Assembly (NCBI RefSeq): GCF_001632745.1
Contig: NZ_LQRT01000024.1
Coordinates: forward strand, 186,001-250,000
Reading direction: 5' to 3'
Length of the DNA: 64,000 nt
Source: Aquimarina aggregata
Lineage (GTDB): Bacteria; Bacteroidota; Bacteroidia; Flavobacteriales; Flavobacteriaceae
The position numbers and the translations under genes are program-made. Under the pieces are notes generated by a model, which worked only from the letters and a program-made list of their open reading frames with translations, was not told the DNA's origin and did no database searches. This document shows, in pieces, positions 2,742 to 20,829 of the stretch (position 1 is the stretch's first letter; each line of letters starts with the position of its first letter).

Positions 2742-2780
2742 TTGTGTTGAAGAAAACACAATGTTTTTCTTTTTTTTTTG
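2742..2780 (+). terminator. intrinsic terminator after the alpha/beta hydrolase
   Basis: Perfect 7-bp inverted repeat TTGTGTT / AACACAA (2742-2748 and 2755-2761) with a 6-nt loop, followed by a very T-rich tract through about 2780. It ends transcription of the hydrolase. It also shows that the ATG at 2761, which would encode a poly-Phe N-terminus, sits in terminator sequence and is not a start codon. Confidence 0.7.
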
Positions 2781-2793
2781 TTTATTTGTCAGT

Positions 2794-3078
2794 ATGAAGT
2801 CAAGTAGACACATCATAGCATCCATTTTCCTAATGATTTTCAGTTTCATTCAGTTGGCTGATCTTCATGTTTTGGACCATGATGCCAATGATGTTGATTG
2901 TACTATTTGTCAATTTGCTTCTCAGGATCATAATGATGATTTTATATCAGCAGAGATAGTAATGCTTCCAGATGCTGTGATTATTCCGGCAGATGTGGTT
3001 CGCAGTACATACGAGAATCGATATTTTAAAACAAATAAGAATCATTCCTTTCTAAATAAAGCTCCTCCTGTAGCTTAA
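2794..3078 (+). CDS. small secreted/membrane protein with His/Asp/Cys-rich segment
   Basis: A 94-residue protein beginning MKSSRHIIASIFLMIFSF, a plausible signal peptide or membrane anchor. It continues with LHVLDHDANDVDCTICQFASQ, which carries His, Asp and a CxxC pair of potential metal ligands. The start at 2794 is chosen over 2761 because the upstream codons lie in a terminator T-tract. It lies 84 nt upstream of a TonB-dependent receptor gene in the same direction and probably belongs to the same uptake unit. No family is recognised. A role in metal handling is inferred only from the residues and the neighbour. Confidence 0.7.
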   Translation: MKSSRHIIASIFLMIFSFIQLADLHVLDHDANDVDCTICQFASQDHNDDFISAEIVMLPDAVIIPADVVRSTYENRYFKTNKNHSFLNKAPPVA

Positions 3079-5559: not shown

Positions 5560-5567
5560 ATTTTAAA

Positions 5568-6170
5568 ATGATGAACTTAAGTAAATTTTTAACCGTGTTT
5601 TTTGCAGCAGCCTTGATACTAACGTCTTGCTCAAGTGATGATGACGCTCCACCACCAGTTACTCCAGAAGAAGTTGTTACAACAATGGTAGTAACACTTA
5701 CAGATGGTACAGATACGGTTACCCTTCGTTTTTTTGATGAAGATGGCGCAGATGGCCCAACTGAACCTACAGGAACAGTAAGTGGTGCATTAAAAGCAAG
5801 CACAACATATACGGGTTCGATTAGTATCCTAAACGAAACCGAAGACCCTGCTGAAAATGTTAATGAAGAGATTCAAGAAGAAGCAGACGATCACCAGTTT
5901 TTTTATATACCTACAAATTTAGGGGTTTCTACTACCTATACGGATAAAGAATCTGATTATGAGAATGCAAACGGAGTACAATTTACTTCTGAAAATCCTG
6001 TGGGATTAACATTTACAATGACAACGACAGCTGATACGGGCGATGGTATGTTAAGGTTTGTTTTAAGACATGAGCCTAATAAAGATGCTGCCGGAGTTTC
6101 TGGAGGAGACATTACGAATGCAGGAGGAGACCCAGATATAGACTGGACGTTTAATGTATCCGTAGAATAA
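5568..6170 (+). CDS. lipoprotein linked to TonB receptor (type 1 periplasmic-binding-fold-like)
   Basis: A 200-residue lipoprotein. The signal peptide ends at a lipobox (LILTSC) followed by SSDDD, the usual Bacteroidota outer-membrane retention context. The mature part is Thr/Asp-rich and beta-predicted (VVTLTDGTDTVTLRFFDEDG; LTFTMTTTADTGDGMLRFVLRHEP). It resembles a family that flavobacterial annotations call type 1 periplasmic binding fold proteins, from memory. It starts 8 nt after the receptor stop, so the two are cotranscribed, and it probably acts beside the receptor as a surface or periplasmic ligand-handling lipoprotein. Two hairpins follow the stop. Confidence 0.85.
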   Translation: MMNLSKFLTVFFAAALILTSCSSDDDAPPPVTPEEVVTTMVVTLTDGTDTVTLRFFDEDGADGPTEPTGTVSGALKASTTYTGSISILNETEDPAENVNEEIQEEADDHQFFYIPTNLGVSTTYTDKESDYENANGVQFTSENPVGLTFTMTTTADTGDGMLRFVLRHEPNKDAAGVSGGDITNAGGDPDIDWTFNVSVE

Positions 6171-6396: not shown

Positions 6397-7965
6397 ATGA
6401 CCTATTTTAAAAAAACATTTTTTGCCATTTCGATCGCATCACTTTGCCTGTGGTCGTGCCAAGAACCCGAAATTGCAGAAGAATCTGCAGAAACAATACC
6501 GCAAATACGTATTGATGAAATTAACCACACGTCAAAAGATATATTAAAGAAAGTGTTTGCAGAAGCCTTGGCTAAATCTTTAAATGAAAGCGTGTCACTT
6601 AGAATGCTCTTAAAAGAAGAATCTCTAAAAAAGTTCGATAATGATTATGATGTTCTTTATCACATGATAAAAGATCGTCAGCTATTAGATGGTAAAACAT
6701 TAAGAACTACACTTGAAAATCACTTAGGAGAAGAAAAATTATTAGAAATAGAACAGGAATTACCAACTCTTACGATTTTTATCCCTGAGTTACCAGAAGA
6801 CTCATTTTCTGCCGATATCTGGGATGCCACTACACAAATACCTCATGTGGCGTATAATGTAAAATCAACTAATGATGTACCTGTTATAAAAAGCAATAGC
6901 GAAATCTTCGTTTTACCATCACACGAGATACCTCTATTTCCGGTTATTGTAGTAAAAGAAAACGAAAGAGTAATATTAGATGGGAAATCCAGTTCTAAAG
7001 GATTTTCAACTAAAAACAGTGAAAAAAACATACTAAAAACCAATGATGGAATTAGTTTTCGGTTTTTAGATGATTCTTTCAATAGAAATCTAAATAAAGA
7101 AAATGAATCTTTTTCAGAAAAAGATTTGGCAAAATCCACTGTAGATCCAAAACATATAGCTGCTTTTGATTTTTTCGAAAACCAAGCAGGTTGGCAAAGA
7201 GATCATTTATATTATAATCAGTCTCCTACAAGTCCAAAAGGCCCATTTTTATTTGATTTTCAAGAACACATTACTTCTTTTAGACTAAAAGGAGGAGGAG
7301 GATGGTCTAATGGCGTAGTCGCATACAACAAAATTGCAGATCAAACGGGTGACCCTAGGATAGGGATACAATACGTACAAGGATATCCACAAACCTATGG
7401 TAGTTGGACAGATGGCGTTTTTGAATTTAAGGTAACGGCTCTTATCAATGCTAAAAATGGTATTGGTTCAGAGTTTATAACATACTTTCCCGTACAGGCA
7501 CGAGATCTATTCCGTATAAGAAGATCAACACCTTCAGGAGAAGATTATAATACATTACGTTTAAGACACTTGAGAACTAAAAGAGTTAATCTTAATCTTC
7601 CTCTTATCAAATGGGATTTAGATCAGTATGCATCTACTATAAAAATCGAAATAGAAGAAGTAGATAGAACAGAGGCGATAACCACAACAGATACTAGAAC
7701 AGTAAAATATGCAACTAATTTTGGTTTTGATATAGGATTTGGTAAAAAAGTAAAAATAGGATTAGAGTTTGGTGCTTCGCGAGAAGAGACCAAAACACAA
7801 ACTATTACAAAAACATATACTGCAGAAAATGATAGACTAGGAGCTATCATCGCTGATTTTGCAGATGATTGTGTTAGGAAAAGCTCGTCTAATAACTATT
7901 CTGTAGGTAGAAGATATACTACCGGGTGGTTTGAAATAGATCTAGCGCCTTTACGAGTGCAATAA
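6397..7965 (+). CDS. large secreted lipoprotein of unknown function (DUF3103-like)
   Basis: A 522-residue lipoprotein: signal peptide with lipobox ending LWSC (Cys about 21). The N-terminal region is helical (about 45-130). The middle has the pattern PTLTIFIPELPEDSFSADIW, which resembles DUF3103 proteins from memory. A Gly-rich segment follows. The C-terminal beta-rich part (about 410-500) alternates polar residues (TTTDTRTVKYATNFGFDIG; REETKTQTITKTYT). That end loosely resembles the Ser/Thr-rich beta-hairpin of aerolysin-like proteins, but is not convincing by itself. It is monocistronic: a terminator pair lies upstream, and 13 nt after the stop a conserved RNA element with its own terminator begins. 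No function can be stated. Confidence 0.8.
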   Translation: MTYFKKTFFAISIASLCLWSCQEPEIAEESAETIPQIRIDEINHTSKDILKKVFAEALAKSLNESVSLRMLLKEESLKKFDNDYDVLYHMIKDRQLLDGKTLRTTLENHLGEEKLLEIEQELPTLTIFIPELPEDSFSADIWDATTQIPHVAYNVKSTNDVPVIKSNSEIFVLPSHEIPLFPVIVVKENERVILDGKSSSKGFSTKNSEKNILKTNDGISFRFLDDSFNRNLNKENESFSEKDLAKSTVDPKHIAAFDFFENQAGWQRDHLYYNQSPTSPKGPFLFDFQEHITSFRLKGGGGWSNGVVAYNKIADQTGDPRIGIQYVQGYPQTYGSWTDGVFEFKVTALINAKNGIGSEFITYFPVQARDLFRIRRSTPSGEDYNTLRLRHLRTKRVNLNLPLIKWDLDQYASTIKIEIEEVDRTEAITTTDTRTVKYATNFGFDIGFGKKVKIGLEFGASREETKTQTITKTYTAENDRLGAIIADFADDCVRKSSSNNYSVGRRYTTGWFEIDLAPLRVQ

Positions 7966-7978
7966 TAAAAGAAAATTG

Positions 7979-8076
7979 ATTGAAACTATGATAATTTGTA
8001 TAAGTTGAGTTTGTAGTATTATATGCAATTAAGTTTCAATTTAAACCCTTTGGAGTAGTTACCAAAGGGTTTTTTA
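7979..8076 (+). ncRNA. repeated structured RNA element, copy 1
   Basis: An approximately 98-nt element. A 9-bp closing stem ATTGAAACT (7979-7987) / AGTTTCAAT (8032-8040) encloses a conserved AAGTTGAGTTTG core. It is followed at once by an 11-bp terminator hairpin AAACCCTTTGG / CCAAAGGGTTT with loop AGTAGTTA (8054-8061) and a T-run. Copies 2 (8602) and 3 (18061) keep the architecture while the terminator stem changes in a compensatory way. It begins 13 nt after the stop of the upstream lipoprotein gene, so it could be that gene's structured 3' end or a separate small RNA. No known family can be confirmed by eye. Confidence 0.65.
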
Positions 8077-8080
8077 TTTT

Positions 8081-8601
8081 TTAGAAACTATGTTATTTAA
8101 TTTTTTTGAGAAACTAAAAGTCATTTGCTTGATGCATATGCTGTTAAATATGTCTTAATTACGCAACCTTTTAGTCTTTTTGACGTCTTTTAATTGGAAT
8201 ATATACGCTATTGTTTTTACAAAAATAAATAGCAATTAAAATTGGGGTTTTATTATCAATTTCTATGAAAGTTTTAACAACTTTAAGATGGGGTATTTTG
8301 CATCAAAGTTGTTATAATTATAACACATCTTTATGAATACTTGGTATAAATTTTGATGAGTTAAGAACAATGTATTAAGTCTATTTAGTTTTTGGCCAAA
8401 AAAGGACTGAGAATATATTAATAAAAGAGGCTTAATTATTTTAAAAAGAATAGTGAAAATTGATTTTCAATGCGTTAATAGCAATCGTTTTATCAAGATA
8501 TTATGGCATTGTTAAATGTGAATTATCATAGATTAAATGTTAAAATATTTAAGGGATACCGCTTATATTCGTGGCGTAAAACCTAACCATATAAATAGTA
8601 C
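8081..8601. other. gene-free stretch between RNA-element copies 1 and 2
   Basis: AT-rich sequence with no convincing gene. It contains an inverted repeat AACAACTTT (8276-8284) / AAAGTTGTT (8305-8313) and, directly after, the perfect 14-bp palindrome GTTATAATTATAAC (8311-8324). A 23-codon ORF (8265-8336) overlaps both and is not considered real. The stretch lies between two copies of the same RNA element, in the same orientation about 620 bp apart. Confidence 0.5.
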
Positions 8602-8699
8602 AATTGAAACTATCATAATTAGTATAAGTTGAGTTTGTGTTAAATACAATTAAGTTTCAATTTAGACCCCTGGGAGTAGTTACCCGGGGGTTGTTTTTT
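8602..8699 (+). ncRNA. repeated structured RNA element, copy 2
   Basis: Closing stem AATTGAAACT (8602-8611) / AGTTTCAATT (8653-8662), 10 bp and perfect, around the conserved core AAGTTGAGTTTGTG. Terminator stem ACCCCTGGG (8666-8674) / CCCGGGGGT (8683-8691), loop AGTAGTTA, then a T-run to 8699. Compared with copy 1 the stem is changed (CTTTGG/CCAAAG becomes CCTGGG/CCCGGG) with pairing kept. No protein gene lies upstream on this strand for over 600 bp, which favours an independent small RNA. Its end overlaps the last codon of the convergent LytTR regulator gene by 2 nt. Confidence 0.7.
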
Positions 8700-9423
8700 A
8701 GAGTAGTACCTGCATCAATTTTGACTTATTTCTCCTGCTAATAGGAATCCTATTTTCACCAATATACACTACCTCTTTTTTTAAATCAAAACTTTCAATC
8801 TTTTTTATATTCACCACACAAGACCTATTAACTTTCATGAATTCTGAAGAATTGATTTTATCAATTAACTCTTTTAGAGAAAGCTTTATTCTTATTTCTT
8901 CTTTAGAAATGAGTATTGAACAGTATTTTCCTTCGACGTTGATTAAACAGATATCAGAAATGTTTATTTTTTGTAATACTTTATCCGTTTTTACAATAAT
9001 ATAGTCTTGCTCTATTTGAGAGTCTGAATGCTTAAAAGTTTTATAACTGAAATTATCTTTTTTATGCTGGCAAGCTAACGCAAAGGTTCTTTTGAAATTT
9101 TCTTTATCCAGAGGTTTAGTAATATAAGAATAGGGAAATGTTTCTTTTGCTTTGTTAAACGTAGCTTCATCAATTGATGAAGTTAGATACATAATAATAA
9201 TAGGAAGATTATTTTCACGAACATATTCAGCTATTTCTATTCCGCTTCGTTTTCCTTTTAGATTAATATCCAACAGGATTAAATTTGGTTTAACAGCTTT
9301 TATTAAACGAAAAGCTTCTTCAGAATCCCCTGTGCTGTTTAATGAACTAATTTTCATTTCAGTTAATAGGACTTCTAATGCATTTACATAAATGACATCG
9401 TCCTCAACAATAAGTACTCTCAC
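8698..9423 (-). CDS. LytTR-family response regulator
   Basis: 241 residues. The N-terminal receiver domain (about 1-120) has the acidic pair E7-D8-D9, phosphoacceptor Asp52 in LILLDINL, and the YITKPLD lysine loop. The C-terminal LytTR DNA-binding domain (about 140-241) contains IVKTDKVLQKINISDICLINVEG and MKVNRSCVVNIKKIE. It activates or represses transcription after phosphorylation. It lies 215 nt downstream of the propeller sensor kinase gene in the same direction, so the two very likely form a two-component pair. Its 3' end meets the terminator of RNA-element copy 2 from the other strand. Confidence 0.92.
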   Translation of the reverse strand: MRVLIVEDDVIYVNALEVLLTEMKISSLNSTGDSEEAFRLIKAVKPNLILLDINLKGKRSGIEIAEYVRENNLPIIIMYLTSSIDEATFNKAKETFPYSYITKPLDKENFKRTFALACQHKKDNFSYKTFKHSDSQIEQDYIIVKTDKVLQKINISDICLINVEGKYCSILISKEEIRIKLSLKELIDKINSSEFMKVNRSCVVNIKKIESFDLKKEVVYIGENRIPISRRNKSKLMQVLL

Positions 9424-9638
9424 AATACAAATTTAATATTTCAATAATTAAAGTTTACTTTCAAAACGTAGTATAGCTATTTTTCTTTATGCAACATAAA
9501 AGAAAATTTGATTAGGTTTTAAGACGTTTATGTTATTAATAGCAAATACCATTCCTTTATAAAAAGAAATCTGATGTTTTGTCATAACAAAAGAGTATTA
9601 GGGGTTTGTCAAAGAGATAGTTACTAGGTTTCTAGAAA

Positions 9639-12600
9639 CTAATCTTGAGCACTAGGAAAAGTTACATGAAATTGTGATCCGATATTCAAAGAACTTTCTA
9701 CCTCTAGTTTTAAGTTGTTTAGTTTTATAAATTCTTTGCAAAGTATTAAGCCCAAACCACTACCTTCTTCTCCCCTAACACCGTAATTACTTTTTTTATA
9801 TCCTATGTCAAAAAGTTTTTCTAAAGCATCTTTATCCATACCAATTCCATTATCTTGAACAGTAAACTTAATAGTTTTATCACCTGTGCACGTCGCTTTT
9901 AATTCTATCAGACCTTTTTCTTCTGTATACTTTATGGCATTGCTTAATAAGTTTCTTACAATACTAGTTGTCGTATTATAATCCGCATATATGTTTGTAC
10001 TCTTGTCGATTAAAAAGAGAACTTGAATCCTATTTTTTTTAATACTTTCATCATATTGATCAAGGCATTCAGAAACTAGCGTATATAAATTTATTTTTTG
10101 AGGGTTAATGGTAATCATATTTTGTTGCGCCATTGCCCATTTCAAGAGGTTGTCTAGTAGATTGTTTAATTTAATCGAAGAACCTCTAATTTTATGAGAT
10201 AATTCTTCTATTTTATCTAGTTCTTTATTTTTAATAAAGTGGTCTATTAAGTAGGGAACTTCTTGAAACGAAATAAGTGGGCTTCTTAGATCATGTGCTA
10301 TAATGGCAAAAAAACGATCTTTTGTTTTATTAAGGATCTTAAGTTCATCGGTTCTTTTATTAACCACGGCCTCTAGTTGTCTTTTTTGTTGTTGGACATA
10401 CCTAATGCGAAATGAATACATTACATATAAAGAGGTAAGGACTAATAATAGTAGTGTTGCTAGAAACCATGGAGTTGCCCAAAAAGGTGGTTTTACGAGA
10501 ATAGAAATAGTGATTCCTTCTTCATTCCATACTCCATGATTGTTAGAAGCTTTGATACGAAGGGTGTAGTTTTTCGCAGATAGGTTAGTAAGCGTGATGG
10601 TGTTTTTAGTACCTAGATTAATCCAATCTTCATGCAGCCCCTCTAGCTTATAGGCATACTGATTAAGGTAATGATTGTAAAAGCTCAAGGCAGAAAAATC
10701 AAACGATATTACCGTATCTTCATGTGATAATTCTAAGATTCCATTAGATGAAAATGCTTGATGTAAGGGAATTTCTTTATTAAACTTTTTAAACCTGGTT
10801 AAGGCTACCTGAGGAATAAAGGTGTTTTTTTTTATTTCTTCAGGCTGAAAAGCATTTACTCCATTTGTACCCCCAAAAAACATTTTTCCTTCTTTGTTTT
10901 TAAAATAAGCATTGGCATTAAATTCATTGCCTTGTAAACCATTACTCTTATCATAATTAACAAAGGTTTCTTGTACTGGATTGAACATAGATAGGCCTTT
11001 ATTAGTGCTTAGCCATAGATTTCCACGCTTATCTTCTAATATTCCATATACAACATTATTTGGTAAACCATCCTTAACGGTATAATGTTTAAACGATTCT
11101 TTATCTCTATCAAAAAGATTTAGCCCACCCCCATTCGTTGCAATCCAAAAGTTTCCTTTTTTATCTTCATAAAAAGAATGGATAAAGTATGAATTGATTC
11201 CGTTTTTCTTATCAGGTCGTTCTTTATATCGTATAAATTTTTCTGTATGTTTATCAAACTTAGCAAATCCATGGCCTTCGGTTCCTACCCAAAAAACACC
11301 TTTTCGATCCTTGTATATTGTATTTATTTTGTTTGAAGGGATACTGTAAGGGTTTTGTGGATCTGTTCTAAAAATTTTAGAGGATTTATTGGTTATGTCC
11401 ACAATGTATAACCCATTAGAGGTTCCAATCCATAATTTGTCTTTGCTCTCAGGAACTATATCAAAAATAAAATTGCAGTTACCATAGAGATATTTAGGGT
11501 ATCGGGTAAATTTTTTTTGATATTTATCTAGTAAGAATAGACCTTTATCATGTATACTAATCCAAAATATGTCTTTTGATATATTTGGATCATTATAGAT
11601 TTCATAGACATCCATACCAACCATTTTAGAATACGTTGTAAAGTCATCGGCATAATGTTGTAATTTACCATTTTGGATATCGATAAGATCAAGCCCGCCG
11701 TACCCACCTATCCAGATGTTTTTATCCATATCCTCATAGATTGAACGAATACTAGAAAAACCTAAGCTGTTTTGATTATTTTCATCTCTTTTATAGGTTT
11801 CAATGGTATTAATAGCGGGAGCTAGCATGAATACTCCGTATCCCATTGTGCCTAACCAAACAATTCCTGATTGATCTACCCAAATGGTTTTAATTGAGTT
11901 TTGAGTTCCTTTTATAGGGTAAAAGCTAAACGTACCATTTTTAGGGTTAAAAACTTCTAATCCGTAATTAGTAGATTGCCATATGAGACCACTTTTGTCC
12001 TGGATCATGATCCCACTATGATATAAATAGTCGTTCCTTTTATAGTTTTTTTGTGTTGACCAGTTTGGTTTATAAAAAACACAAGTTTCTTTAGTCGCAA
12101 GATTTATTTGCTCTAAGGATTTGTTATCATGCCTACTTCTGTATAATAATAGTTCACCATAATTATTTTCCTGAATCATTTGATGACTATATCCAATATT
12201 GTTTATAACTGTATTATAAGAGGTTATAAATTGTTGTTTTTGAATATCGAAAATATAAATACTAGTATCCTCATCTTTTAAAGCTTCAATGTATAAACGA
12301 TTTTCGGATTTATTACTTTTTATACGAGATATAGCTTTATCATCATTAATCGTATATCTTTCGGTTTTATTTGTATTAAGGTTGAATTTAAGTAGTTCTC
12401 CTTTAGATGTTCCTATCCAAACAATTCCTTTGGTATTGGAGTAGATTGTCCTTATTATATGTTGCGCGTTTAGATGTTCATTTTCAAAAAATTGAAAGCA
12501 CTCTGTAAATGGGTCAAAACTATATAACCCGTTTAAAGTTCCTATCCATAGTACGCCGGTAGTATCTTCATAAATAGCAGTAATAACATTATTTTGTATA

Positions 12601-12851
12601 CTACAGGGATTATCGTAATAATAATTATAGATTTTAAATTCGTATCCATCATATCGATTAAGTCCATCTTTGGTTCCGAACCACATAAACCCTTTTTTAT
12701 CTTGAATAATACTAGATATATAGCCTTGAGAAAGTCCATCGTTAGTAGTTAAATGTATGTAAGATGAGGGGTCTTCTTGAGCGTATCCGCAATTAATTAT
12801 ACTGCTAAGAAGTACACTAATTAATAGATGATAAATTTTATTTTTTTGCAT
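9639..12851 (-). CDS. propeller-domain sensor histidine kinase
   Basis: 1070 residues. Signal peptide (about 1-24). A large periplasmic sensor follows, built of two beta-propellers from repeated units of the type GLWIGT..GL..FD (for example GFMWFGTKDGLNRYDGYEF, GVLWIGTLNGLYSFDP). Next come a Y_Y_Y domain (about 690-760), one membrane helix (PWFLATLLLLVLTSLYVMY), a HisKA domain with H-box FFAIIAHDLRSPL, and an HATPase domain (NLLSNAIKYT, DNGIGMD, GSGLGL). Unlike many Bacteroidota hybrid two-component systems it has no fused receiver or AraC domain; output must pass to the LytTR regulator encoded next. Such sensors usually detect glycans or small molecules in the periplasm. The ligand is unknown. 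Confidence 0.95.
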   Translation of the reverse strand: MQKNKIYHLLISVLLSSIINCGYAQEDPSSYIHLTTNDGLSQGYISSIIQDKKGFMWFGTKDGLNRYDGYEFKIYNYYYDNPCSIQNNVITAIYEDTTGVLWIGTLNGLYSFDPFTECFQFFENEHLNAQHIIRTIYSNTKGIVWIGTSKGELLKFNLNTNKTERYTINDDKAISRIKSNKSENRLYIEALKDEDTSIYIFDIQKQQFITSYNTVINNIGYSHQMIQENNYGELLLYRSRHDNKSLEQINLATKETCVFYKPNWSTQKNYKRNDYLYHSGIMIQDKSGLIWQSTNYGLEVFNPKNGTFSFYPIKGTQNSIKTIWVDQSGIVWLGTMGYGVFMLAPAINTIETYKRDENNQNSLGFSSIRSIYEDMDKNIWIGGYGGLDLIDIQNGKLQHYADDFTTYSKMVGMDVYEIYNDPNISKDIFWISIHDKGLFLLDKYQKKFTRYPKYLYGNCNFIFDIVPESKDKLWIGTSNGLYIVDITNKSSKIFRTDPQNPYSIPSNKINTIYKDRKGVFWVGTEGHGFAKFDKHTEKFIRYKERPDKKNGINSYFIHSFYEDKKGNFWIATNGGGLNLFDRDKESFKHYTVKDGLPNNVVYGILEDKRGNLWLSTNKGLSMFNPVQETFVNYDKSNGLQGNEFNANAYFKNKEGKMFFGGTNGVNAFQPEEIKKNTFIPQVALTRFKKFNKEIPLHQAFSSNGILELSHEDTVISFDFSALSFYNHYLNQYAYKLEGLHEDWINLGTKNTITLTNLSAKNYTLRIKASNNHGVWNEEGITISILVKPPFWATPWFLATLLLLVLTSLYVMYSFRIRYVQQQKRQLEAVVNKRTDELKILNKTKDRFFAIIAHDLRSPLISFQEVPYLIDHFIKNKELDKIEELSHKIRGSSIKLNNLLDNLLKWAMAQQNMITINPQKINLYTLVSECLDQYDESIKKNRIQVLFLIDKSTNIYADYNTTTSIVRNLLSNAIKYTEEKGLIELKATCTGDKTIKFTVQDNGIGMDKDALEKLFDIGYKKSNYGVRGEEGSGLGLILCKEFIKLNNLKLEVESSLNIGSQFHVTFPSAQD

Positions 12852-13112
12852 TCTCTAAGAATAAGTGGTACCTGTACAAAGCTGATTTTTAAGGCTGCAA
12901 TAGTATTTCAATTTTGAAATAATCAAAAGTATAAACTCTAAAAATTATCTTAAAAATTTCTTTAAAATCACTCATACCAAAAAAACAACCAGTTGTACCA
13001 GTTAAAGCTAAAAAAGGAAGTCAAAGTTATTGAAACAGATACATCTAGTTCTCTTAGCGTACTTCAGTTTGACATAGTTTATTAATATGTCTGAAAAAAC
13101 TTTATAAAACCG
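12852..13112. other. intergenic region between divergent genes
   Basis: AT-rich region upstream of the sensor kinase (minus) and of the lipoprotein gene at 13216 (plus). No ORF of note. The part closest to the lipoprotein gene is the duplicated promoter block listed separately. Confidence 0.5.
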
Positions 13113-13180
13113 CTTATTCCTATTCTAAGACCAGTCGATTCGTATTTTTTGAGGATACTAAAACACGTTTCATCTTTACC
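13113..13180 (+). promoter_or_regulatory. duplicated promoter block, copy A
   Basis: 61 of 68 positions match 14411-14478, and each copy starts 103-106 nt before a lipoprotein start codon. Inside it, TTG (13149-13151), a 19-nt spacer and CATCTTTA (13171-13178) fit the Bacteroidota -33 TTG / -7 TAnnTTTG promoter with substitutions. The best-conserved run is TATTTTTTGAGGATACTAAA, which covers the -33 region and part of the spacer and may also hold a regulator site. Confidence 0.6.
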
Positions 13181-13215
13181 GAATCTTAAATCAATAATTT
13201 ATAAAACAATAAAAA

Positions 13216-14244
13216 ATGAGTAAAAAATTTCACTTGTTATTTGCAATTATGATGGCTTCAACATTGTTAGTTTCATGTAATAAGATATTTCTAGGTAAAG
13301 GTACTTGTAAAATTGGTTCTGTTGAAAAGGAATTTACCAAGGCTAACTCTTTTAATAAAGGAGTTCTTGCTTTATCAAATGGAGATGATGAGTTTGTATC
13401 TTTCTTTTTTCCAATCCCAACGACCTTTCCCACAACGTATGATATGAATACAAGAAAAATAATCACAGTTGACTGTTCTGTTAATGGTAAACAATATAGT
13501 GCCACTAATGGGGCTTTAGGTTTTGGAAGACAAGGTTCATTTACTATTAAAATTACAAAGTATAGTAACTCCAGAATTTCAGGAACGTTTCAGTTTACTG
13601 CTATTAATGATGATCATGAGCAAATAGTTATTAAAGACGGAATCTTTAATGAAATTCCGGATTTAGAATTTTTTAATAAGAAACTTGGGCTAATGGAAGA
13701 CAAACCGTCCCATACTCAAGACCCGCAAGATCCTAAAATAGAACACCAATCGAAGGAAAGTAAATCATTTCACATTACAGAGATTCAAGATCAAGAAAAA
13801 AGTAAAACTGAAGAAGAACTAATTTCTGATATCAGAGAAAAATTTGGTGCTATTAACTATAATATTAATTCTTATACAAAAGTCAAAAAAGACGTAATGG
13901 AAGAAAGTACAGAAGGTGGCGAGCTTGAGGGTTATTTTAAAAACACTGAATTAAGGAAAATGATAACGACTTACTACGGCGAAATGGGTAAGCTAATAGA
14001 AGAATACTATTTGTGGGACGATCAATTATTTTTTGTTTTCACACATGAACATTACTATGATAAGCCAATGCATATGGAAGGTTCAAAGGTTTCTAAAATA
14101 AATGAGAATCGATATTATTTTTATAAAGATAAGCTAGTAAGGTGGCTTGATCCACAAAAGAAAAAAGTTGCCAAATCAAAATTTACCGAAAAGGGGACAG
14201 AAATACTACAAAAATCTAAAAAGTTGAAAGAAAAAGTAAAATAA
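13216..14244 (+). CDS. lipoprotein with DUF6252-like N-terminal domain
   Basis: 342 residues. Lipoprotein signal with lipobox LLVSC. The mature N-terminal domain (about 25-150) ends in the beta-hairpin pattern FTIKITKYSNSRISGTFQFT...IKDGIFNEIP, which recalls DUF6252 proteins from memory. A charged linker (about 155-205) follows, then a C-terminal domain (about 205-320) with REKFGAINYNINSYTK and FFVFTHEHYYDKP, of a type I do not recognise. It ends in a Lys-rich tail. It is driven by duplicated promoter copy A, so it is probably coregulated with the lipocalin-like gene at 14517. Function unknown. Confidence 0.8.
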   Translation: MSKKFHLLFAIMMASTLLVSCNKIFLGKGTCKIGSVEKEFTKANSFNKGVLALSNGDDEFVSFFFPIPTTFPTTYDMNTRKIITVDCSVNGKQYSATNGALGFGRQGSFTIKITKYSNSRISGTFQFTAINDDHEQIVIKDGIFNEIPDLEFFNKKLGLMEDKPSHTQDPQDPKIEHQSKESKSFHITEIQDQEKSKTEEELISDIREKFGAINYNINSYTKVKKDVMEESTEGGELEGYFKNTELRKMITTYYGEMGKLIEEYYLWDDQLFFVFTHEHYYDKPMHMEGSKVSKINENRYYFYKDKLVRWLDPQKKKVAKSKFTEKGTEILQKSKKLKEKVK

Positions 14245-14410
14245 AAGCATAAGACAGAACAATCGTAACCAGCGAGTATGGTTAATGCTTATAAAATGAC
14301 CAGTAATACCGCATGTAGTAAATAAAGGAGATTTGATACTTTAAAAGGTATCAAATTGATTCTCTTTGTTTTATGAAAATTAACTTGTTTGTCTATATAC
14401 TTAGAAACCA

Positions 14411-14478
14411 CTTATTCCTATTATAAAACCAATCGAATCCTATTTTTTGAGGATACTAAAACACGCTTCATCTTTGCC
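14411..14478 (+). promoter_or_regulatory. duplicated promoter block, copy B
   Basis: Second copy of the block at 13113 (61 of 68 identical). TTG at 14447-14449, a 19-nt spacer, then CATCTTTG at 14469-14476: a good fit to TTG-N19-TAnnTTTG apart from the first base of the -7 box. It precedes the lipocalin-like lipoprotein gene. Confidence 0.65.
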
Positions 14479-14516
14479 CGACAGTAATTCAAAAGATATA
14501 TAAAAACTTCAAAAAA

Positions 14517-15059
14517 ATGATTAAACAACTTTACTTATTATTTCTAGTCACCGTTGCTTCAACGCTATTAATTTCATGCAGTAATGATGATGATAGTTCA
14601 CCTGATTTGTCAGATACTTTGGCGCTCGACGGTATTTGGAAGCTAACTAGTTTAAAAACAGAAAACGGAAAAATATCACCAGAGGATATTTCTTTAATAG
14701 CAGATTTTGAAATGATCGGAGAATATTATGGTCTCCTGATTGATTTTATTGAACCAAATATTTTAACTCAAACTGGTTTTTATGATCTAAGATTAAGAGC
14801 TGCTGGGAATGAGGAATTTGTAGAAGATATTGAAGTAGTTATACCTCCTGGGAGATGGTCAAAAGAAGGGAATGAGTTAACTATAAGTTTCAATAACAAT
14901 ACGCTAACTTTTGTTATCAACAAAATATCTAAAGACAAGATAAGCCTTGTAGCCGATCTTAATTCTTACTTATCAATAATGAATGTCTTCGAAGATGAAG
15001 ATGAACCTAAACTTACGTTCAAAGGCGAGATTGTTTTAGAATTAACAAAACAGAACTAG
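14517..15059 (+). CDS. lipocalin-like lipoprotein
   Basis: 180 residues. Lipobox LLISC followed by SNDDDSSP. The mature part opens with LDGIWKLTSLKTENG, the G-x-W start of small Bacteroidota lipocalin-like domains, and continues with alternating strands (GRWSKEGNELTISFNNNTLTF) to about residue 175. Probably an outer-membrane-anchored small-molecule or stress lipoprotein; no ligand can be inferred. It shares its promoter block with the lipoprotein gene at 13216, and a perfect hairpin follows. Confidence 0.8.
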   Translation: MIKQLYLLFLVTVASTLLISCSNDDDSSPDLSDTLALDGIWKLTSLKTENGKISPEDISLIADFEMIGEYYGLLIDFIEPNILTQTGFYDLRLRAAGNEEFVEDIEVVIPPGRWSKEGNELTISFNNNTLTFVINKISKDKISLVADLNSYLSIMNVFEDEDEPKLTFKGEIVLELTKQN

Positions 15060-15092
15060 AAAACGCTTTTTTTTGCCTCCAGATCAAAAACA

Positions 15093-15125
15093 AAGGCTTT
15101 TAGAAAGTTACTTTCTAAAAGCCTT
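15093..15125 (+). terminator. 15-bp perfect hairpin after the lipocalin-like gene
   Basis: AAGGCTTTTAGAAAG (15093-15107) and CTTTCTAAAAGCCTT (15111-15125) pair perfectly across a 3-nt loop. The T-tract after it is poor, so it may be a Rho-independent terminator of modest strength or an RNA-stabilising 3' hairpin. Confidence 0.65.
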
Positions 15126-15290
15126 ATCATAATCGTTTATATATACTTAGCAAATATGTAAAATGCTTAGAATGCATTTAATAAACCGCCCCAGTATAAC
15201 AATACAAATAAAAACAGACAATACTAATTAAAACCACAACCACTAGAATTTTAATAATAGAAGTTCTATAGATTATCAAAATAGTATAAA

Positions 15291-17006
15291 ATGAAAAACA
15301 AATACTTTATAATTTACGTAATAACAGCACTATTGAGTTTAACTAGTGCAACGGCTCAAGAACAATTATGGAAAGGAACCTTTGAGGGTTGGGATTTTGG
15401 TTTTAAAGACGGAAAAGGAAACCGTGACGAATTTTGGAAAATCCAACCTAACGGAGAACTACATGCTATAGGAGGCACATGGTATGACCGCCAAAGTGGT
15501 ATGCGCACAGCAAAACCTTACAGTAATTATGAATTAACATTAGAATATAAATGGTTAACACCAGGAAGTGGTGATAGAGATGGTAACAGTGGTATCTGGA
15601 TTCATGGAGAAAATAATTTTGCTCAAGATAACGGTGGATTTCCAAATTCTATAGAAGTACAGCTTAAAAAAGGAGAAGCAGGAGATCTTCTTAGAAAAGG
15701 AATGGATATAAAAGCTAGGCCTGGCTATCTTAATAAAGGTAAATATGGAAATGGAAGAATAAGACATGAACAACTACCAAGACGTAGTGACCCTAAAGGT
15801 ACCATAGAGTATTTTCATAAAGAATGGAATACAATGACCATACGATGTGAAGAAGACCTTATTTCTGTATATCTAAACGGATTTTTGATTAATCAAGGGA
15901 ACGTTTTTAAAAATGGAAAAGCTGTAACATCTGGATTTATAACATTGCAATCTGAATTAAAAAATCTAGCTTTTAGAAACATTTATATTGAAGAAATAGA
16001 GAATACAGAGCGTTGTTCTATTAGTCCTATAGTATATGACAAACATGGTATTACTAATAATATAAGTAGAGAAGATGATTATGCTGAAATTGAAATTGGA
16101 GGCTATGTAGTATTATGTGCGATTACCCAGAGTGAAGGAACTTGGACCTGGACAGGACCTAATAATTTTAGTGATGTAGGAAGGTGTATTACTATTCCAA
16201 ATGTTCAAGAAGATCAATTGGGAATCTACACAGCTACTTTTGCTGGAATCAATGGATGTAATGCCTCTCATAACTTTGAAATAGGACTTGAAAAAGATAT
16301 ATCTGGCACCTATCATTTCATTAACGTAAAAACTAAAAAGTACTTGGATGCAGATCCAAATACAGTGGTAAAACAAGGAAATAATGAAGCAAATGATAAT
16401 GATACGCACTGGAACTTGATCCCTTCTACCCCTGGGTATTTTTTTATAGATAATGATAAGAATGACCGAGGGCCTTTGATGGCAGCATCTTCACTACATA
16501 ATAGTATATCTTATGAGGCAGAAGAATTGCTTATGACTCCAGCTCCTCGAAGAGAGTGGAAAGCGATCAAAGTTGGTTATAACACTTACCAGTTTTTATG
16601 CAAAGATGAAGCAAGAGGATATTTAACAGCAGTGGTTGGTAATGAAAAAGTAATAAATACAAATAACTTAATAGGAGACGGAGTAGCTATAGAATGGGAA
16701 TTGATTCCTGTTTCCAATAGTAAAAAGTCTGATAATAAACTGACTATAAATAAATCAAATCACAGTAATATTCTGGTTACCCAAGCCGCTAATAATGGAT
16801 CATTTACGGTTCATTTTAACGGACAAAAAATATCAGATCTAATAATTTACAATATGACGGGTCAAAATGTGTACAAAAAAACCTTTGGAGAGCAAAAACC
16901 TACGAGTCATTTATTAGTAAATCAAAATTTTGTGTCAGGAATATATATACTACAAACCATAGACGCAAATGGTAATACGAAAAGTACCAAGTTTATGGTT
17001 GACTAG
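15291..17006 (+). CDS. T9SS-exported DUF1080 (3-keto-disaccharide hydrolase-like) protein
   Basis: 571 residues. Signal peptide (about 1-22, ending TATAQ). DUF1080 domain (about 23-235), a concanavalin-like sandwich with YELTLEYKW, GNSGIWIHGENN and EWNTMTIRCEEDLISVYLNG. An Ig-like segment (about 255-335, GTWTWTGPNNFSDVG). A beta-trefoil-like segment (about 338-480, YHFINVKTKKYLDADPN). Finally a T9SS type A sorting domain (about 495-571, with ISDLIIYNMTGQNVYKK, ending STKFMVD). It is therefore exported through the outer membrane, probably to bind or hydrolyse a carbohydrate. The domain combination is unusual. Catalysis is inferred from the family name only. Confidence 0.88.
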   Translation: MKNKYFIIYVITALLSLTSATAQEQLWKGTFEGWDFGFKDGKGNRDEFWKIQPNGELHAIGGTWYDRQSGMRTAKPYSNYELTLEYKWLTPGSGDRDGNSGIWIHGENNFAQDNGGFPNSIEVQLKKGEAGDLLRKGMDIKARPGYLNKGKYGNGRIRHEQLPRRSDPKGTIEYFHKEWNTMTIRCEEDLISVYLNGFLINQGNVFKNGKAVTSGFITLQSELKNLAFRNIYIEEIENTERCSISPIVYDKHGITNNISREDDYAEIEIGGYVVLCAITQSEGTWTWTGPNNFSDVGRCITIPNVQEDQLGIYTATFAGINGCNASHNFEIGLEKDISGTYHFINVKTKKYLDADPNTVVKQGNNEANDNDTHWNLIPSTPGYFFIDNDKNDRGPLMAASSLHNSISYEAEELLMTPAPRREWKAIKVGYNTYQFLCKDEARGYLTAVVGNEKVINTNNLIGDGVAIEWELIPVSNSKKSDNKLTINKSNHSNILVTQAANNGSFTVHFNGQKISDLIIYNMTGQNVYKKTFGEQKPTSHLLVNQNFVSGIYILQTIDANGNTKSTKFMVD

Positions 17007-17196
17007 TGTAGAATAATATTATATGATGATCATCTTGCCTTTATCAATTCTGAATCAGAACATAAATCTGTTATTGAATTTAAAATAATTATTCCCAAGT
17101 GATTAAAAAAAATCAGAATTAAAAAAATGATATAACATCCATCATATTAATAATGGAAAAAAAGTAAGTAAGAATCTGTTTTTAACACATTAAACC

Positions 17197-17243
17197 CTAT
17201 CAGATATGTTTAACAATGTATGGCTCCTTTTTATGTCTGATAG
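17197..17243 (+). promoter_or_regulatory. inverted repeat in the leader of the outer-membrane protein gene
   Basis: CTATCAGATAT (17197-17207) pairs with ATGTCTGATAG (17233-17243), 11 bp including one G-U, 41 nt before the start codon of the barrel protein gene. It could be an operator or a 5'-UTR stem. No specific regulator can be named. Confidence 0.4.
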
Positions 17244-17284
17244 TTAGTATACAGGAGTTGAAATAATAAATTAATATTTAAATT

Positions 17285-17851
17285 ATGAGAAAAATTTTAG
17301 TACTAGCTGTAGTTACTTTATTAGGAATGACAACTACAAATGCACAAGTTAAATTTGGTTTTGGTTTTGGTTATGCAGTACCTTCAGGAGATATTGCAGA
17401 CATTACTGATGGTGGACTTTCCGCGCACCTTGAATTAGGATATGGAGTAACAGAAAATATTGATGTTTCTATTTTATGGCAAGGTGATTTCCTAACTGGG
17501 GCTGATGTTCAAATAAACGACATACAATCATCGGTATCTTACGGAGCTGTAGCCTTAGGAAGTTTCCTTGTAAATGGCCGTTACTTTTTTACAGACACAA
17601 AATTTAAACCTTATGGAAGCCTTGGATTGGGATTAACTAATATAGGATCGATAGAAATAGAGTCTAATATTACTACAGTTCAAGGGAATGTTGGGAGTAC
17701 GTCTAACTTTGCATTTCGTCCAGCTGTTGGTTTTAAGTATGGTGTTCTTAATATGAATGCTGCTTATCTGAATGCAGGTAAAGTAGGCGATACTTCAATA
17801 AGTGATTTTACGGTAAATATTGGTCTGTTATTTACTTTCGGAGGACAATAG
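17285..17851 (+). CDS. outer-membrane beta-barrel protein (OmpW/OprF-like fold)
   Basis: 188 residues. Signal peptide ending NAQ (about 1-20), then alternating amphipathic strands with turn glycines (KFGFGFGYAVPSGDI, GLSAHLELGYGVTENIDVSI, FKPYGSLGLGLTNIG), ending in a terminal strand LLFTFGGQ. Typical of small eight-stranded Bacteroidota outer-membrane proteins. Preceded by a leader inverted repeat. No operon partner; the next element on the strand is RNA-element copy 3. Confidence 0.85.
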   Translation: MRKILVLAVVTLLGMTTTNAQVKFGFGFGYAVPSGDIADITDGGLSAHLELGYGVTENIDVSILWQGDFLTGADVQINDIQSSVSYGAVALGSFLVNGRYFFTDTKFKPYGSLGLGLTNIGSIEIESNITTVQGNVGSTSNFAFRPAVGFKYGVLNMNAAYLNAGKVGDTSISDFTVNIGLLFTFGGQ

Positions 17852-18060
17852 ATTAGAATCAAATTAAAATACTAAAAAAGAGACTGTATAAACCACCCAA
17901 TGTTATGCATAAAACAAAAACCTAGACATAATTATAACAAGTATTGATGTTGAAATAATTATTTACGAGTACTATAGAAAGGTTAAGTAATTAAATGAAT
18001 TCTATAAAAGTAAATTTATTTAATTGAAATACAAAAAAGACCTTCAGTACAGTACCTTAC
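17852..18060. other. intergenic, nothing clear
   Basis: AT-rich spacer between the barrel gene and RNA-element copy 3. No ORF or strong hairpin was seen. If copy 3 is an independent RNA, its promoter must lie in the last part of this stretch; I did not find a good TTG/TAnnTTTG pair at correct spacing. Confidence 0.4.
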
Positions 18061-18161
18061 AATTGAAACTATCATGATTAGTTAGTATGAGTTGAGTTTG
18101 TGTTTACTACAACTACGTTTCAATTTAGACCCCTGGGAGTGGTTACCTGGGGGTTGTTTTT
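18061..18161 (+). ncRNA. repeated structured RNA element, copy 3
   Basis: Closing stem AATTGAAAC (18061-18069) / GTTTCAATT (18117-18125). Conserved core GAGTTGAGTTTGTG. Terminator stem ACCCCTGGG (18129-18137) / CCTGGGGGT (18146-18154) with loop AGTGGTTA and TTGTTTTT after it. Compared with copy 2, one C-G pair of the terminator stem becomes a G-T wobble and a 2-3-nt insertion falls in the interior. It lies 210 nt after the barrel gene and points toward the 3' end of the TIR gene. The 10-kb distance from copies 1 and 2 shows it is dispersed, not a simple tandem duplication. Confidence 0.7.
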
Positions 18162-18254: not shown

Positions 18255-19274
18255 TTAAATCTGTTTAAGCTGTTTTTTGTAAGATGTAACCCAAGAGGGT
18301 ACTTCTACTGTGTTAACTTTATTAAGTATTAATTCAGTTTTCTCTCTATTAGGCGAATTTTTAAGGACTATTGTATCATTAGAATAAACCCAACCACCTT
18401 TTAAGATATCGTTGCTAATAATGTCAAGAAAAAAGTAACCGTTGATATAATGACTATTTAACCATTTGAACTCTCCATATATTCTCTTTTTTGTTATTTT
18501 AATATTATAAAAATGAGCCAAGAAGTTTTCGTTGTCTTCATACAAATAGGGCATATGAAATTTATCGTCAATAAAGAATCCGTAATATGAAGATTTAGTA
18601 ATTGGGCTTTCCCAAAGCCCAGATAAAATATTTAGGTGATGATGATCAAAAAGGTTTGAGTCTATAGATTCATTATTTTGTTCGGTTAAATTTGATAGAA
18701 TTTTTTCGATTTGGTTTACTCTTATTTTCAATCCTTCATTGACATCATTATAATTAAGAAGTAAATTTTCATACTTTTCATTATCTGATTTCCTTTTATC
18801 AGGAAAATTTAAGGAATTTAACTTAACCTCTAGATCATCCCACCATTTATCAAAGATTATGTCAATTTTATTATTGGGTAAATCAAGAGAGTCAAATAAT
18901 TTAATAAGTAGTTTTTTTAACCCACTTTTATCTATTGTTAAGGTTTGAAATTGTGAGAGTGGACTTTTAGATATTTCAGAATCTTTTATATTAATAAGAA
19001 GCGGTATAACCATAGAATTATTTATGTGCTTAGACAATGCACCTGCCTCAAAATTTATCCAAGGAGACATTAAATTTTCGTTAGTTAAACAAATTATACC
19101 TGCATTACATTGCTCTAATTCTTTTGCTAGTTTATCACTCCATCTATCACCTGGACTTAAACTAGAAGAAGATATAAAAGTTGGGATGTTTGGCAAAATA
19201 CAATTTAACCAATCACCCAATATTGTTGAAAATTCATTGCTTAATTTTCCAGACCAACTAATAAATATTTTCAT
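18255..19274 (-). CDS. TIR-domain protein with unrecognised beta-rich C-terminal domain
   Basis: 339 residues, no signal peptide. N-terminal TIR_2-like domain (about 1-135): starts MKIFISWSGKLSNEF; BB-loop-like region SSSSLSPGDRWSDKLAKEL; then IICLTNENLMSPWINFEAG, where Glu76 occupies the position of the catalytic glutamate in NAD-cleaving TIR domains. A helical linker follows (about 150-205). The C-terminal domain (about 213-325) is rich in aromatic residues and beta strands (LSGLWESPITKSSYYGFFID; RIYGEFKWLNSHYINGYFF) and could be a small ligand-sensing barrel. The gene stands alone among unrelated genes. Bacterial TIR proteins of this kind often act in anti-phage abortive defence; here that is an inference. 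Confidence 0.85.
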   Translation of the reverse strand: MKIFISWSGKLSNEFSTILGDWLNCILPNIPTFISSSSLSPGDRWSDKLAKELEQCNAGIICLTNENLMSPWINFEAGALSKHINNSMVIPLLINIKDSEISKSPLSQFQTLTIDKSGLKKLLIKLFDSLDLPNNKIDIIFDKWWDDLEVKLNSLNFPDKRKSDNEKYENLLLNYNDVNEGLKIRVNQIEKILSNLTEQNNESIDSNLFDHHHLNILSGLWESPITKSSYYGFFIDDKFHMPYLYEDNENFLAHFYNIKITKKRIYGEFKWLNSHYINGYFFLDIISNDILKGGWVYSNDTIVLKNSPNREKTELILNKVNTVEVPSWVTSYKKQLKQI

Positions 19275-19998: not shown

Positions 19999-20829
19999 AT
20001 GAAAAAGATCACCTTTGTACTATTATCTATTGTTATTGTTACAATAGTGTTGTCATGCGAAAAAAAGGAAACATTAAATGAACTTTTAGGTAAAACTACA
20101 ATGCTAACAACAAGTCAATTAGAGAAATTATTGGCACTTGGTGTTAATGTTGATAATGTAACACTTGAAAACCTTAGACTTTTTGACGGGACACTTGAAA
20201 AGAACCTTGTATTAGGTGATATTACAATTCCTGTTGCAAAAATAGATGAGTATGTAACCTTAAAGACTTCAGAGAATAATAAACAACAACTCGAGGTATC
20301 AAATATTGTAGCACCAGAATATCGAAATATAAAAATTGTTGGGTATTCTGGAGAAGGGTTTGCGCTAACTTCAAAAATGCGAACGGCACTCTCATGGGCA
20401 GTTTCAAATTATAACAATTTATCTACTACTCTTAATTTTTCACTTACCTATGGTACCGATACTGATACAGCTGATATTATAGTGTATAAAGTTGAAGGAG
20501 AGGCAGGAGGTTCTGCTGGATTTCCTTCCATTAATGGAAAACCGTATAAATATGTTAGAATTAATTCAGATACTGATAATCTAACTATTAATATGAATGA
20601 GCATATAATCACACATGAGATTGGACATTGCATAGGGTTAAGACATAAAGACTGGATGAATCCTTGCGGAAAAGGATTGATCTCGGATGTAGAATTTAAA
20701 TTAATTCAGGATAAGTCTGCATTTCTTTTTGAAGACTCGATTATGCAATCCTGTTTCTCATCTACTAGCGATGGCGAATTTACAGATGCCGATAAAAACC
20801 TAATAACTTTTCTATATCAAAAAAAGTAA
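19999..20829 (+). CDS. M57-type (dual-action HEIGH) zinc metallopeptidase lipoprotein
   Basis: 276 residues. Lipobox IVLSC (Cys20). The catalytic metzincin-type motif HEIGHCIGLRH lies at 206-216 (zinc ligands His206, His210, His216; Glu207), followed by Asp-Trp-Met and Pro-Cys-Gly. Upstream, GFPSINGKPYKYVRIN and ITHEIGH match the dual-action HEIGH peptidase family (M57) as remembered. The N-terminal about 100 residues form a helix-rich region with LEKLLALGVNVDNVTLENL, common to these lipoproteins. It is probably anchored at the outer membrane and acts on extracellular or periplasmic proteins. Monocistronic. Confidence 0.88.
   Translation: MKKITFVLLSIVIVTIVLSCEKKETLNELLGKTTMLTTSQLEKLLALGVNVDNVTLENLRLFDGTLEKNLVLGDITIPVAKIDEYVTLKTSENNKQQLEVSNIVAPEYRNIKIVGYSGEGFALTSKMRTALSWAVSNYNNLSTTLNFSLTYGTDTDTADIIVYKVEGEAGGSAGFPSINGKPYKYVRINSDTDNLTINMNEHIITHEIGHCIGLRHKDWMNPCGKGLISDVEFKLIQDKSAFLFEDSIMQSCFSSTSDGEFTDADKNLITFLYQKK

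Follow-up and report, generated by a model that had tools for sequence, protein, structure and literature searches.

A stretch of 64,000 nucleotides (nt) from Aquimarina aggregata (contig NZ_LQRT01000024.1, positions 186,001 to 250,000; hereafter, the window) carries three plus-strand copies of a two-hairpin RNA element, located at 7979–8077, 8603–8698, and 18062–18161 in covariance model coordinates, and the question raised by this locus is what these copies do. A preliminary description had placed the copies within a few nt of these positions and had taken them for structured RNA with a built-in terminator. Here, related elements were found across the genus, and the core of the first hairpin was found to be complementary to conserved sites in the leaders of three families of secreted zinc metalloproteases. 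We regard it as quite likely that the copies are sibling trans-acting small RNAs (sRNAs) that pair with the 5′ ends of protease messenger RNAs (mRNAs), most likely blocking translation. Such sRNAs would probably control when secreted proteases are made.

The similarity of the three copies was not attributable to chance because copy 2, searched against its own genome (6.19 Mb), found copy 3 at an expectation value (E) of 1.1e-31 and copy 1 at E 3.9e-24, and because the copies folded better than shuffled sequences. Relative to dinucleotide shuffles, the folding energies corresponded to z-scores of −4.4, −4.5, and −2.4 for copies 1, 2, and 3, respectively, and 2 of 200 shuffles folded as well as copy 3. 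Each fold consisted of a closing stem with a large loop and a terminator hairpin. The closing stem (ATTGAAACT/AGTTTCAAT), the core (AGTTGAGTTTG), and the 8-nt terminator loop (AGTAGTTA, or AGTGGTTA in copy 3) were as previously described, except that the innermost closing pair of copy 3 is an open T–C. On comparing the copies directly, the pairs of the terminator stem differed between copies 1, 2, and 3 with pairing kept, as had been claimed.

In the case of copy 1 (plus strand; model match 108 bits), the core AAGTTGAGTTTGT lies at 8002–8014, is not followed by GT, unlike those of copies 2 and 3, and has two mismatches relative to the 14-nt seed word defined below; its terminator hairpin spans 8043–8072, with the loop AGTAGTTA at 8054–8061. 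Copy 2 (plus strand; 122.7 bits) holds the seed AAGTTGAGTTTGTGT at 8626–8640 and a terminator hairpin at 8665–8692, in which the loop AGTAGTTA at 8675–8682 is the proposed second pairing loop. Copy 3 (plus strand; 107.1 bits) holds the seed AGTTGAGTTTGTGT at 18090–18103 and a terminator hairpin at 18128–18155 with the loop AGTGGTTA at 18138–18145. The mean unpaired probability of the seed in the predicted fold was 0.80 in copy 1 and 0.55 in copy 2.

The conservation of the element was evaluated using a covariance model, R1, which was built from the three window copies and run on 66 genomes of the genus Aquimarina. Matches at E ≤ 1 were found in 57 of the 66 genomes; 51 of these had a match at E < 1e-12, and the other six were weak (E 0.0015 to 0.99). 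At least two matches at E ≤ 1 were present in 48 of the 51 strong-match genomes, and tandem copies were frequently approximately 380–400 nt apart. When 88 copies (81 distinct; matches in 50 sources) were aligned, 18 of 20 base pairs showed two-sided changes, which bore out the claim of a structured RNA with its own terminator. In this alignment, 92.2% of the cells were paired, compared with 81.9% in shuffles and 58–59% when the alignment was slid by one base, although the alignment was fitted to the covariance model, which favours the structure. A replaced closing stem, ACCGGAGC/GCTTCGGT, was directly visible in a paralogue of the own genome (L021) located outside the window. The core was conserved as well, with AAGTTGA[AG]TTTGT carried by 72 of the 88 copies. 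Thus, several homologous copies per genome sharing one seed were found, which is the pattern of sibling sRNAs, and the element is probably a multi-copy sibling sRNA family that is restricted, in the searches made, to the genus Aquimarina.

Whether the element belongs to a known motif was also asked, since the preliminary description had left open a membership in Flavo-1. Flavo-1 is an RNA motif described from Bacteroidota. When the window was searched against Rfam, the only match at the gathering score was a transfer RNA elsewhere in the window, and at E ≤ 10 there were sub-threshold matches only, none of them to Flavo-1. Four related loci likewise had no match at the gathering score against Rfam, Flavo-1 included. 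Copies 1–3 therefore fail to match the Flavo-1 covariance model. CRISPR/tracrRNA and integron attC elements were considered as candidate readings on account of ATTGAAAC and GTTRRRY-like letters.

The function of the core became apparent from the genomic match listing, in which its reverse complement was first noticed just upstream of start codons. These complementary sites lay mostly ≤25 nt from the start codon of secreted metalloprotease genes. Three words were used in the counts, namely, a 14-mer (ACACAAACTCAACT) and, as complements of the core, an 11-mer (CACAAA[CT]TCAA) and a 10-mer (ACAAA[CT]TCAA). The exact 14-mer occurred at 261 sites in the 66 genus genomes, a number that includes the sRNA genes, compared with 4 for the reversed word. 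For each protease family, 30 loci were examined (for M57 and M36, the best ones, one per genome), and 205 leaders served as the background; these came from 48 loci, almost all of which bear Aquimarina in the title. The 11-mer was present in 28/30 M57, 29/30 M36, and 16/30 astacin leaders, and the 10-mer in 28/30, 30/30, and 21/30, respectively; in the background, both were found in 0/205.

M57 (PF12388; matches in 57 genomes) was the main predicted target family. Its 14-mer site lay at −20 to −24 in 29 of 30 leaders, exact in 26 and with one mismatch in 3, and these 29 leaders shared the conserved block AACTACACAAACTCAACTT between divergent flanks. In the case of M36 (PF02128; matches in 47 genomes), 24 of 30 leaders came within two mismatches of the full 14-mer. 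Exactly 4 nt separated the site from a promoter box, TAATTTTG (12 leaders) or TAATTTTA (16 leaders), in 28 of the 30, and the transcription start is therefore predicted at the first base of the site. In the astacins (M12A, PF01400; matches in 60 genomes), a search of 150-nt stretches found the 14-mer with at most two mismatches in 19 of 30.

The predicted duplex energies agreed with these counts. With the 20-nt seed region, M57 leaders averaged −20.5, compared with a background mean of −7.2 and a background minimum of −14.3 (251 leaders, window leaders included). The observed means of −20.5 (M57), −17.2 (M12A), and −17.4 (M36) were reached by none of 200 shuffled seeds. The preliminary description had suggested that the core could be a base-pairing seed, and this suggestion is strongly supported by the conserved complementary sites in the unlinked mRNAs of three protease families (M57, M36, and M12A). 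The core AAGTTGAGTTTGTGT is thus very probably a base-pairing seed.

When two mismatches were allowed, the own genome held 79 sites of the 14-mer (6 exact, 6 with one mismatch), compared with 45 for the reversed word (0 exact, 2 with one mismatch). Of these, 30 of the 79 word loci and 30 of the 45 control loci were fetched, and a script flagged 8 of the 30 word loci as leaders, of which five or six were accepted, and 0 of the 30 control loci; L404 and L417 were discounted as antisense to genes, and L411 was doubtful. Other target candidates, each seen in a single genome, were an M43-like protein, a trypsin-like protein with a secretion tail, and a sortilin-like protein. At L245 (G000:C46:458360) and L398 (G000:C15:6616), an ATG comes after the seed site and opens a short reading frame that seems to be broken; these are perhaps decayed targets.

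The terminator loop may provide a second contact. The loop GTAGTTA was present in 62 of the 88 copies, and its complement, TAACTAC, directly adjoined the seed site in 24 of 29 M57 leaders and occurred in 1 of 205 background leaders. We consider a two-loop contact likely for M57 only. A cofold of copy 2 with an M57 leader opened the closing stem and was set aside as evidence. The loop match also bears on another explanation, in which a protein recognizes the leader element ACACAAACTCAA, as DNA or as RNA, and the sRNA-like loci carry its complement by descent from antisense insertions or as decoys. The position of ACACAAACTCAA directly behind the promoter box in M36 genes would suit such a site. 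However, a protein site leaves unexplained why the terminator loop matches the adjacent half of the M57 leader, and the core of the first RNA family (type I) occupies the large loop of a hairpin that covaries, while that of a second family (type II, described below) stands beside a terminator. We consider a protein site very unlikely.

Promoter signals were sought upstream of the copies. The promoter box of flavobacteria is given as TAnnTTTG at −12 to −5 in PMC9723704. TANNTTYG was found ≤60 nt upstream of 32 of the 88 copies, and 20 of those 32 boxes start 38–40 nt upstream; on the opposite strand, the control count was 5 of 88. The window copies differed in this respect. Copy 2 has a predicted −7 box, TATATTCG (plus strand, 8564–8571), which starts 39 nt upstream of the copy and predicts a transcript start at approximately 8576. 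The absence of a same-strand protein gene upstream of copy 2 was confirmed, with no open reading frame (ORF) of ≥90 aa between 7965 and 8602, a distance of 637 nt. The earlier view of an independent small RNA is supported, by prediction, for copy 2; copy 1 instead lies directly behind protein genes, its nearest being the ORF at 6397–7965.

Two further explanations can be weighed against these signals. If the elements were mere terminators of upstream operons, the position of copy 1 directly after a gene would be expected, as would the many copy-1-type RNAs that begin right behind the apparent end of a lipoprotein gene (among the first 60 rows listed). However, a promoter is predicted for copy 2, the 637 nt upstream of it hold no same-strand ORF of ≥90 aa, and a conserved 15-nt core is needless for a terminator, which makes this explanation highly improbable. 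The copies could also stem from a mobile, terminator-bearing repeat, as its ends or relics, and have no function in trans, as they are numerous and often in tandem at the spacing given above. Their recurrent place near a receptor–lipoprotein gene pair, the promoter box upstream of 32 of the 88 copies, the covariation, and the conserved complementary leaders all speak against such an origin, which we find barely credible.

The trans-acting sRNA reading can be set out as follows. An sRNA of about 100–125 nt would hold the seed AAGUUGAGUUUGUGU in the large loop of hairpin 1, and hairpin 2 would act as the intrinsic terminator, with the loop GUAGUUA in most copies. The seed would pair with ACACAAACUCAA(CUU) in the short leaders of secreted zinc metalloprotease mRNAs (M57, M36, and M12A), at a site that coincides with the predicted mRNA 5′ end or lies close to it and that ends a few nt before the AUG. 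In the case of M57, the terminator loop would also pair with the adjoining UAACUA(C), giving up to 20 contiguous paired bases. A duplex of 15–20 bp in a leader of about 25–30 nt would then hinder ribosome loading. The structure, the copy number, the conservation, and the complementarity with its position in the leader were observed here; that the RNA is produced, that it pairs in the cell, and that ribosome loading is blocked is inferred.

The sign of the effect was considered separately. Repression is the first choice because the duplex ends only a few nt before the AUG in a leader of about 25–30 nt; it is the more probable outcome. A duplex so near the AUG falls in the range of the 30S footprint and is expected to hinder the ribosome. 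Protection or activation of the mRNA is a possible, though less favoured, effect. In its full form, this alternative keeps the proposed pairing at the mRNA 5′ end but has the sRNAs protect the mRNA or open the leader, leading to protease activation. The predicted M36 mRNA start at the pairing site, with the same 4-nt spacing in 28 of 30 leaders, would suit 5′-end protection. In addition, loss of the sRNA Rfp18 in Flavobacterium psychrophilum lowers two metalloprotease mRNAs in stationary phase (PMC9723704). Because Rfp18 acts with the opposite sign on the mRNA level, 5′-end protection is a serious rival to repression, albeit a rather unlikely one, since the duplex close to the AUG should hinder the ribosome.

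Known systems provide two comparisons, with Rfp18 as the closest precedent for function and LhrC as that for architecture. Rfp18 (F. psychrophilum and F. columnare; Guerin 2021, PMC9723704) is presented as a genus-conserved sRNA that affects secreted metalloproteases, with one stem-loop predicted to pair with all listed targets. The Aquimarina RNA resembles it as a putative flavobacterial sRNA predicted to act on metalloproteases, its candidate targets (PF12388, PF02128, and PF01400) being assigned by complementarity only. According to the same paper, Rfp18 pairs via its third stem-loop, its fpp1 site lies between two operon genes, and its deletion lowers the target mRNA, whereas repression is favoured for the Aquimarina RNA. 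The comparison is by description, and in the other sampled family genomes, the Aquimarina seed word was no more frequent than expected by chance. Flavobacteria lack Shine–Dalgarno sequences (PMC9723704).

LhrC of Listeria monocytogenes comprises multi-copy homologous sRNAs whose stem-loop A and terminator loop act on the leaders of surface-protein mRNAs, according to PMC13350326. The likeness lies in the layout, with homologous copies that have a stem-loop A and a terminator loop, and in the predicted action on leaders. In that source, the motifs that LhrC directs at AG-rich ribosome sites are CU-rich, whereas the Aquimarina loops are AAGUUGAGUUUGUGU and AGUAGUUA, which are not CU-rich. Moreover, in Aquimarina, a single site has two adjoining halves, each matched by a different loop sequence. 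LhrC is thus a precedent in architecture, with no sequence relation claimed.

Several observations weigh against the proposed sRNA function and have to be set beside the evidence in its favour. The support consists of sequence and prediction. The exact 14-mer was absent from the eight good-quality genus genomes without a strong sRNA match, but the sRNA genes themselves contain the word, which makes this co-occurrence circular in part. The independent check covered 3 leaders in 2 genomes that have no strong sRNA match; the site was found in 0 of 3, and one of the start codons was uncertain. The seed of copy 3 is partly paired in the predicted fold (mean unpaired probability 0.37). Among the M57 genes, one best match (L329) lacked the site; of 18 further M57 leaders in sRNA genomes, 10 had it within two mismatches and 8 did not have it; and an M57 paralogue in the window itself (19999–20829, plus strand), close to copy 3, has no leader site. 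The M36 promoter box ends in A instead of G in 16 of 28 cases. The astacin leaders matched less well than those of M57 and M36, and in some of them, the start codon was placed on the basis of the protein match. As for the terminator loop, 26 of the 88 sRNA copies are without GTAGTTA, and the loop match was found in 0 of 30 M36 leaders and 1 of 30 astacin leaders. Finally, Rfp18, the nearest studied analogue, raises its target mRNAs (PMC9723704), so the direction in Aquimarina may be opposite to that favoured here.

The trans-acting sRNA reading is directly testable, since both the seed and the conserved leader site are defined, each of the three enzyme families is represented by 30 examined leaders, and some natural genomes seemingly are without the system. 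Few sRNA–target networks are known in Bacteroidota, and no paper on sRNAs of Aquimarina was found in the literature collection searched. If true, the proposal would show how a marine bacterial genus coordinates its secreted proteases.

The distribution outside the genus was determined in several ways. In a collection of named genomes (84,980 species, one genome per species), a strict sRNA pattern retrieved 99 stretches, 53 of which were titled Aquimarina. Of the other 46, four, from three vaguely titled assemblies, carried the RNA by model score, and the remainder gave nothing above 19 bits (26 tested, E ≤ 1) or nothing at E ≤ 0.1 (16 tested). A model designated R2 matched 27 of 397 family genomes at E ≤ 0.01, 3 of them from the genus itself; the other 24 scored below 43 bits, 6 of these 24 carried a loose seed (≤2 mismatches), and all 24 were treated as chance, without proof. 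The 14-mer gave one match in each of 6 of 394 sampled family genomes outside the genus, compared with 16 matches of the reversed word. Similarly, the leader site was found within two mismatches in 0 of 13 M36 relatives examined outside the genus (28 fetched). In the searches made, neither the RNA nor the leader site exceeded the chance level outside the genus.

The seed was also carried by other elements. Among the 14-mer sites listed, 102 were typed as not obviously type I copies (at least one was type I and was dropped), and 60 of the typed sites were fetched from 18 genomes. By reading, these comprised 16 leaders (12 M57-like), 17 copies of a second RNA, 2 intragenic sites, and 25 others that were left unclassified, some of them hairpins of the AAAGGA..CAGGAGTAATT kind described below. 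The second RNA (type II) contains AAAACCCTAAGCTAAGTTGAGTTTGTGTTAGG followed by a different terminator, and each of the 18 genomes, the own genome included, had one among its inspected sites. Its terminator had 5 pairs with two-sided changes, whereas 4 of 5 pairs of its small first stem, CCTAA/TTAGG, were invariant, so that this stem was neither supported nor refuted. By inspection, only the seed could be aligned between the two families, although, as both have the same layout, they may share a common descent.

These families allow a wider picture, which we offer as speculative and quite unlikely as a whole: a two-loop regulon whose several sRNAs, possibly of separate origin, converged on one seed for the extreme 5′ ends of zinc metalloprotease mRNAs. 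One copy would derive from the 3′ region of a receptor operon whose receptor weakly resembles the haem/ZnuD type, and a shortage of metal or haem would switch off secreted zinc enzymes in a metal-sparing response.

Long hairpins of the type AAAGGA..CAGGAGTAATT ... GCTCCTG..TCCTTTTT carry AGTTGAGTTTGTGT inside, with several per genome in some species (L251, L259, L267, L271, L273, L274, L278, L281, L284, and L285). They lie mostly >500 nt from ORFs of ≥110 aa, L281 being 198 nt from one, which suggests another seed carrier or a dispersed repeat. In two other genera of the family, L356 and L359 are laid out similarly, with two hairpins, but have another core in common, AATAGTTGATGGTTRG, and then a terminator; they are possibly an analogous sRNA family. 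A common element, CTTTAAGTGTTATAGATTA...GAAGCACTTCTAAACTAAACTTTGG, stands ahead of a terminator at L361 and L363, again from two other genera of the family.

In the window, the genes for a TonB-dependent receptor (3163–5559) and a lipoprotein (5568–6170), both within 3163–6170 on the plus strand, are recurrent upstream neighbours of copies 1 and 2. The receptor had tblastn matches (E ≤ 1e-8) in 76 of 148 loci and the lipoprotein in 61 of 148, where the 148 loci include some without the sRNA. The models closest to the receptor were those of haem receptors and ZnuD, although its scores did not reach their cut-offs. The idea of a metal-regulator box ahead of the receptor operon was dropped, as 22 aligned upstream regions showed the promoter-like TTTATTTG and no palindrome by eye. 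A partnership with a neighbouring LytTR regulator was rejected, since the regulator was present in only 1 of 148 loci. A small ORF at 2761–3078 (plus strand), which has no family match, is conserved before the receptor.

Elsewhere in the window, direct repeats of 88 nt at 13107–13194 and 14405–14492 are 84% identical, and each stands shortly upstream of a lipoprotein-like gene (13216 and 14517); they are perhaps a shared promoter or leader. Just past copy 3, a TIR-domain protein (PF13676) is encoded at 18255–19274 on the minus strand and is a possible defence gene.

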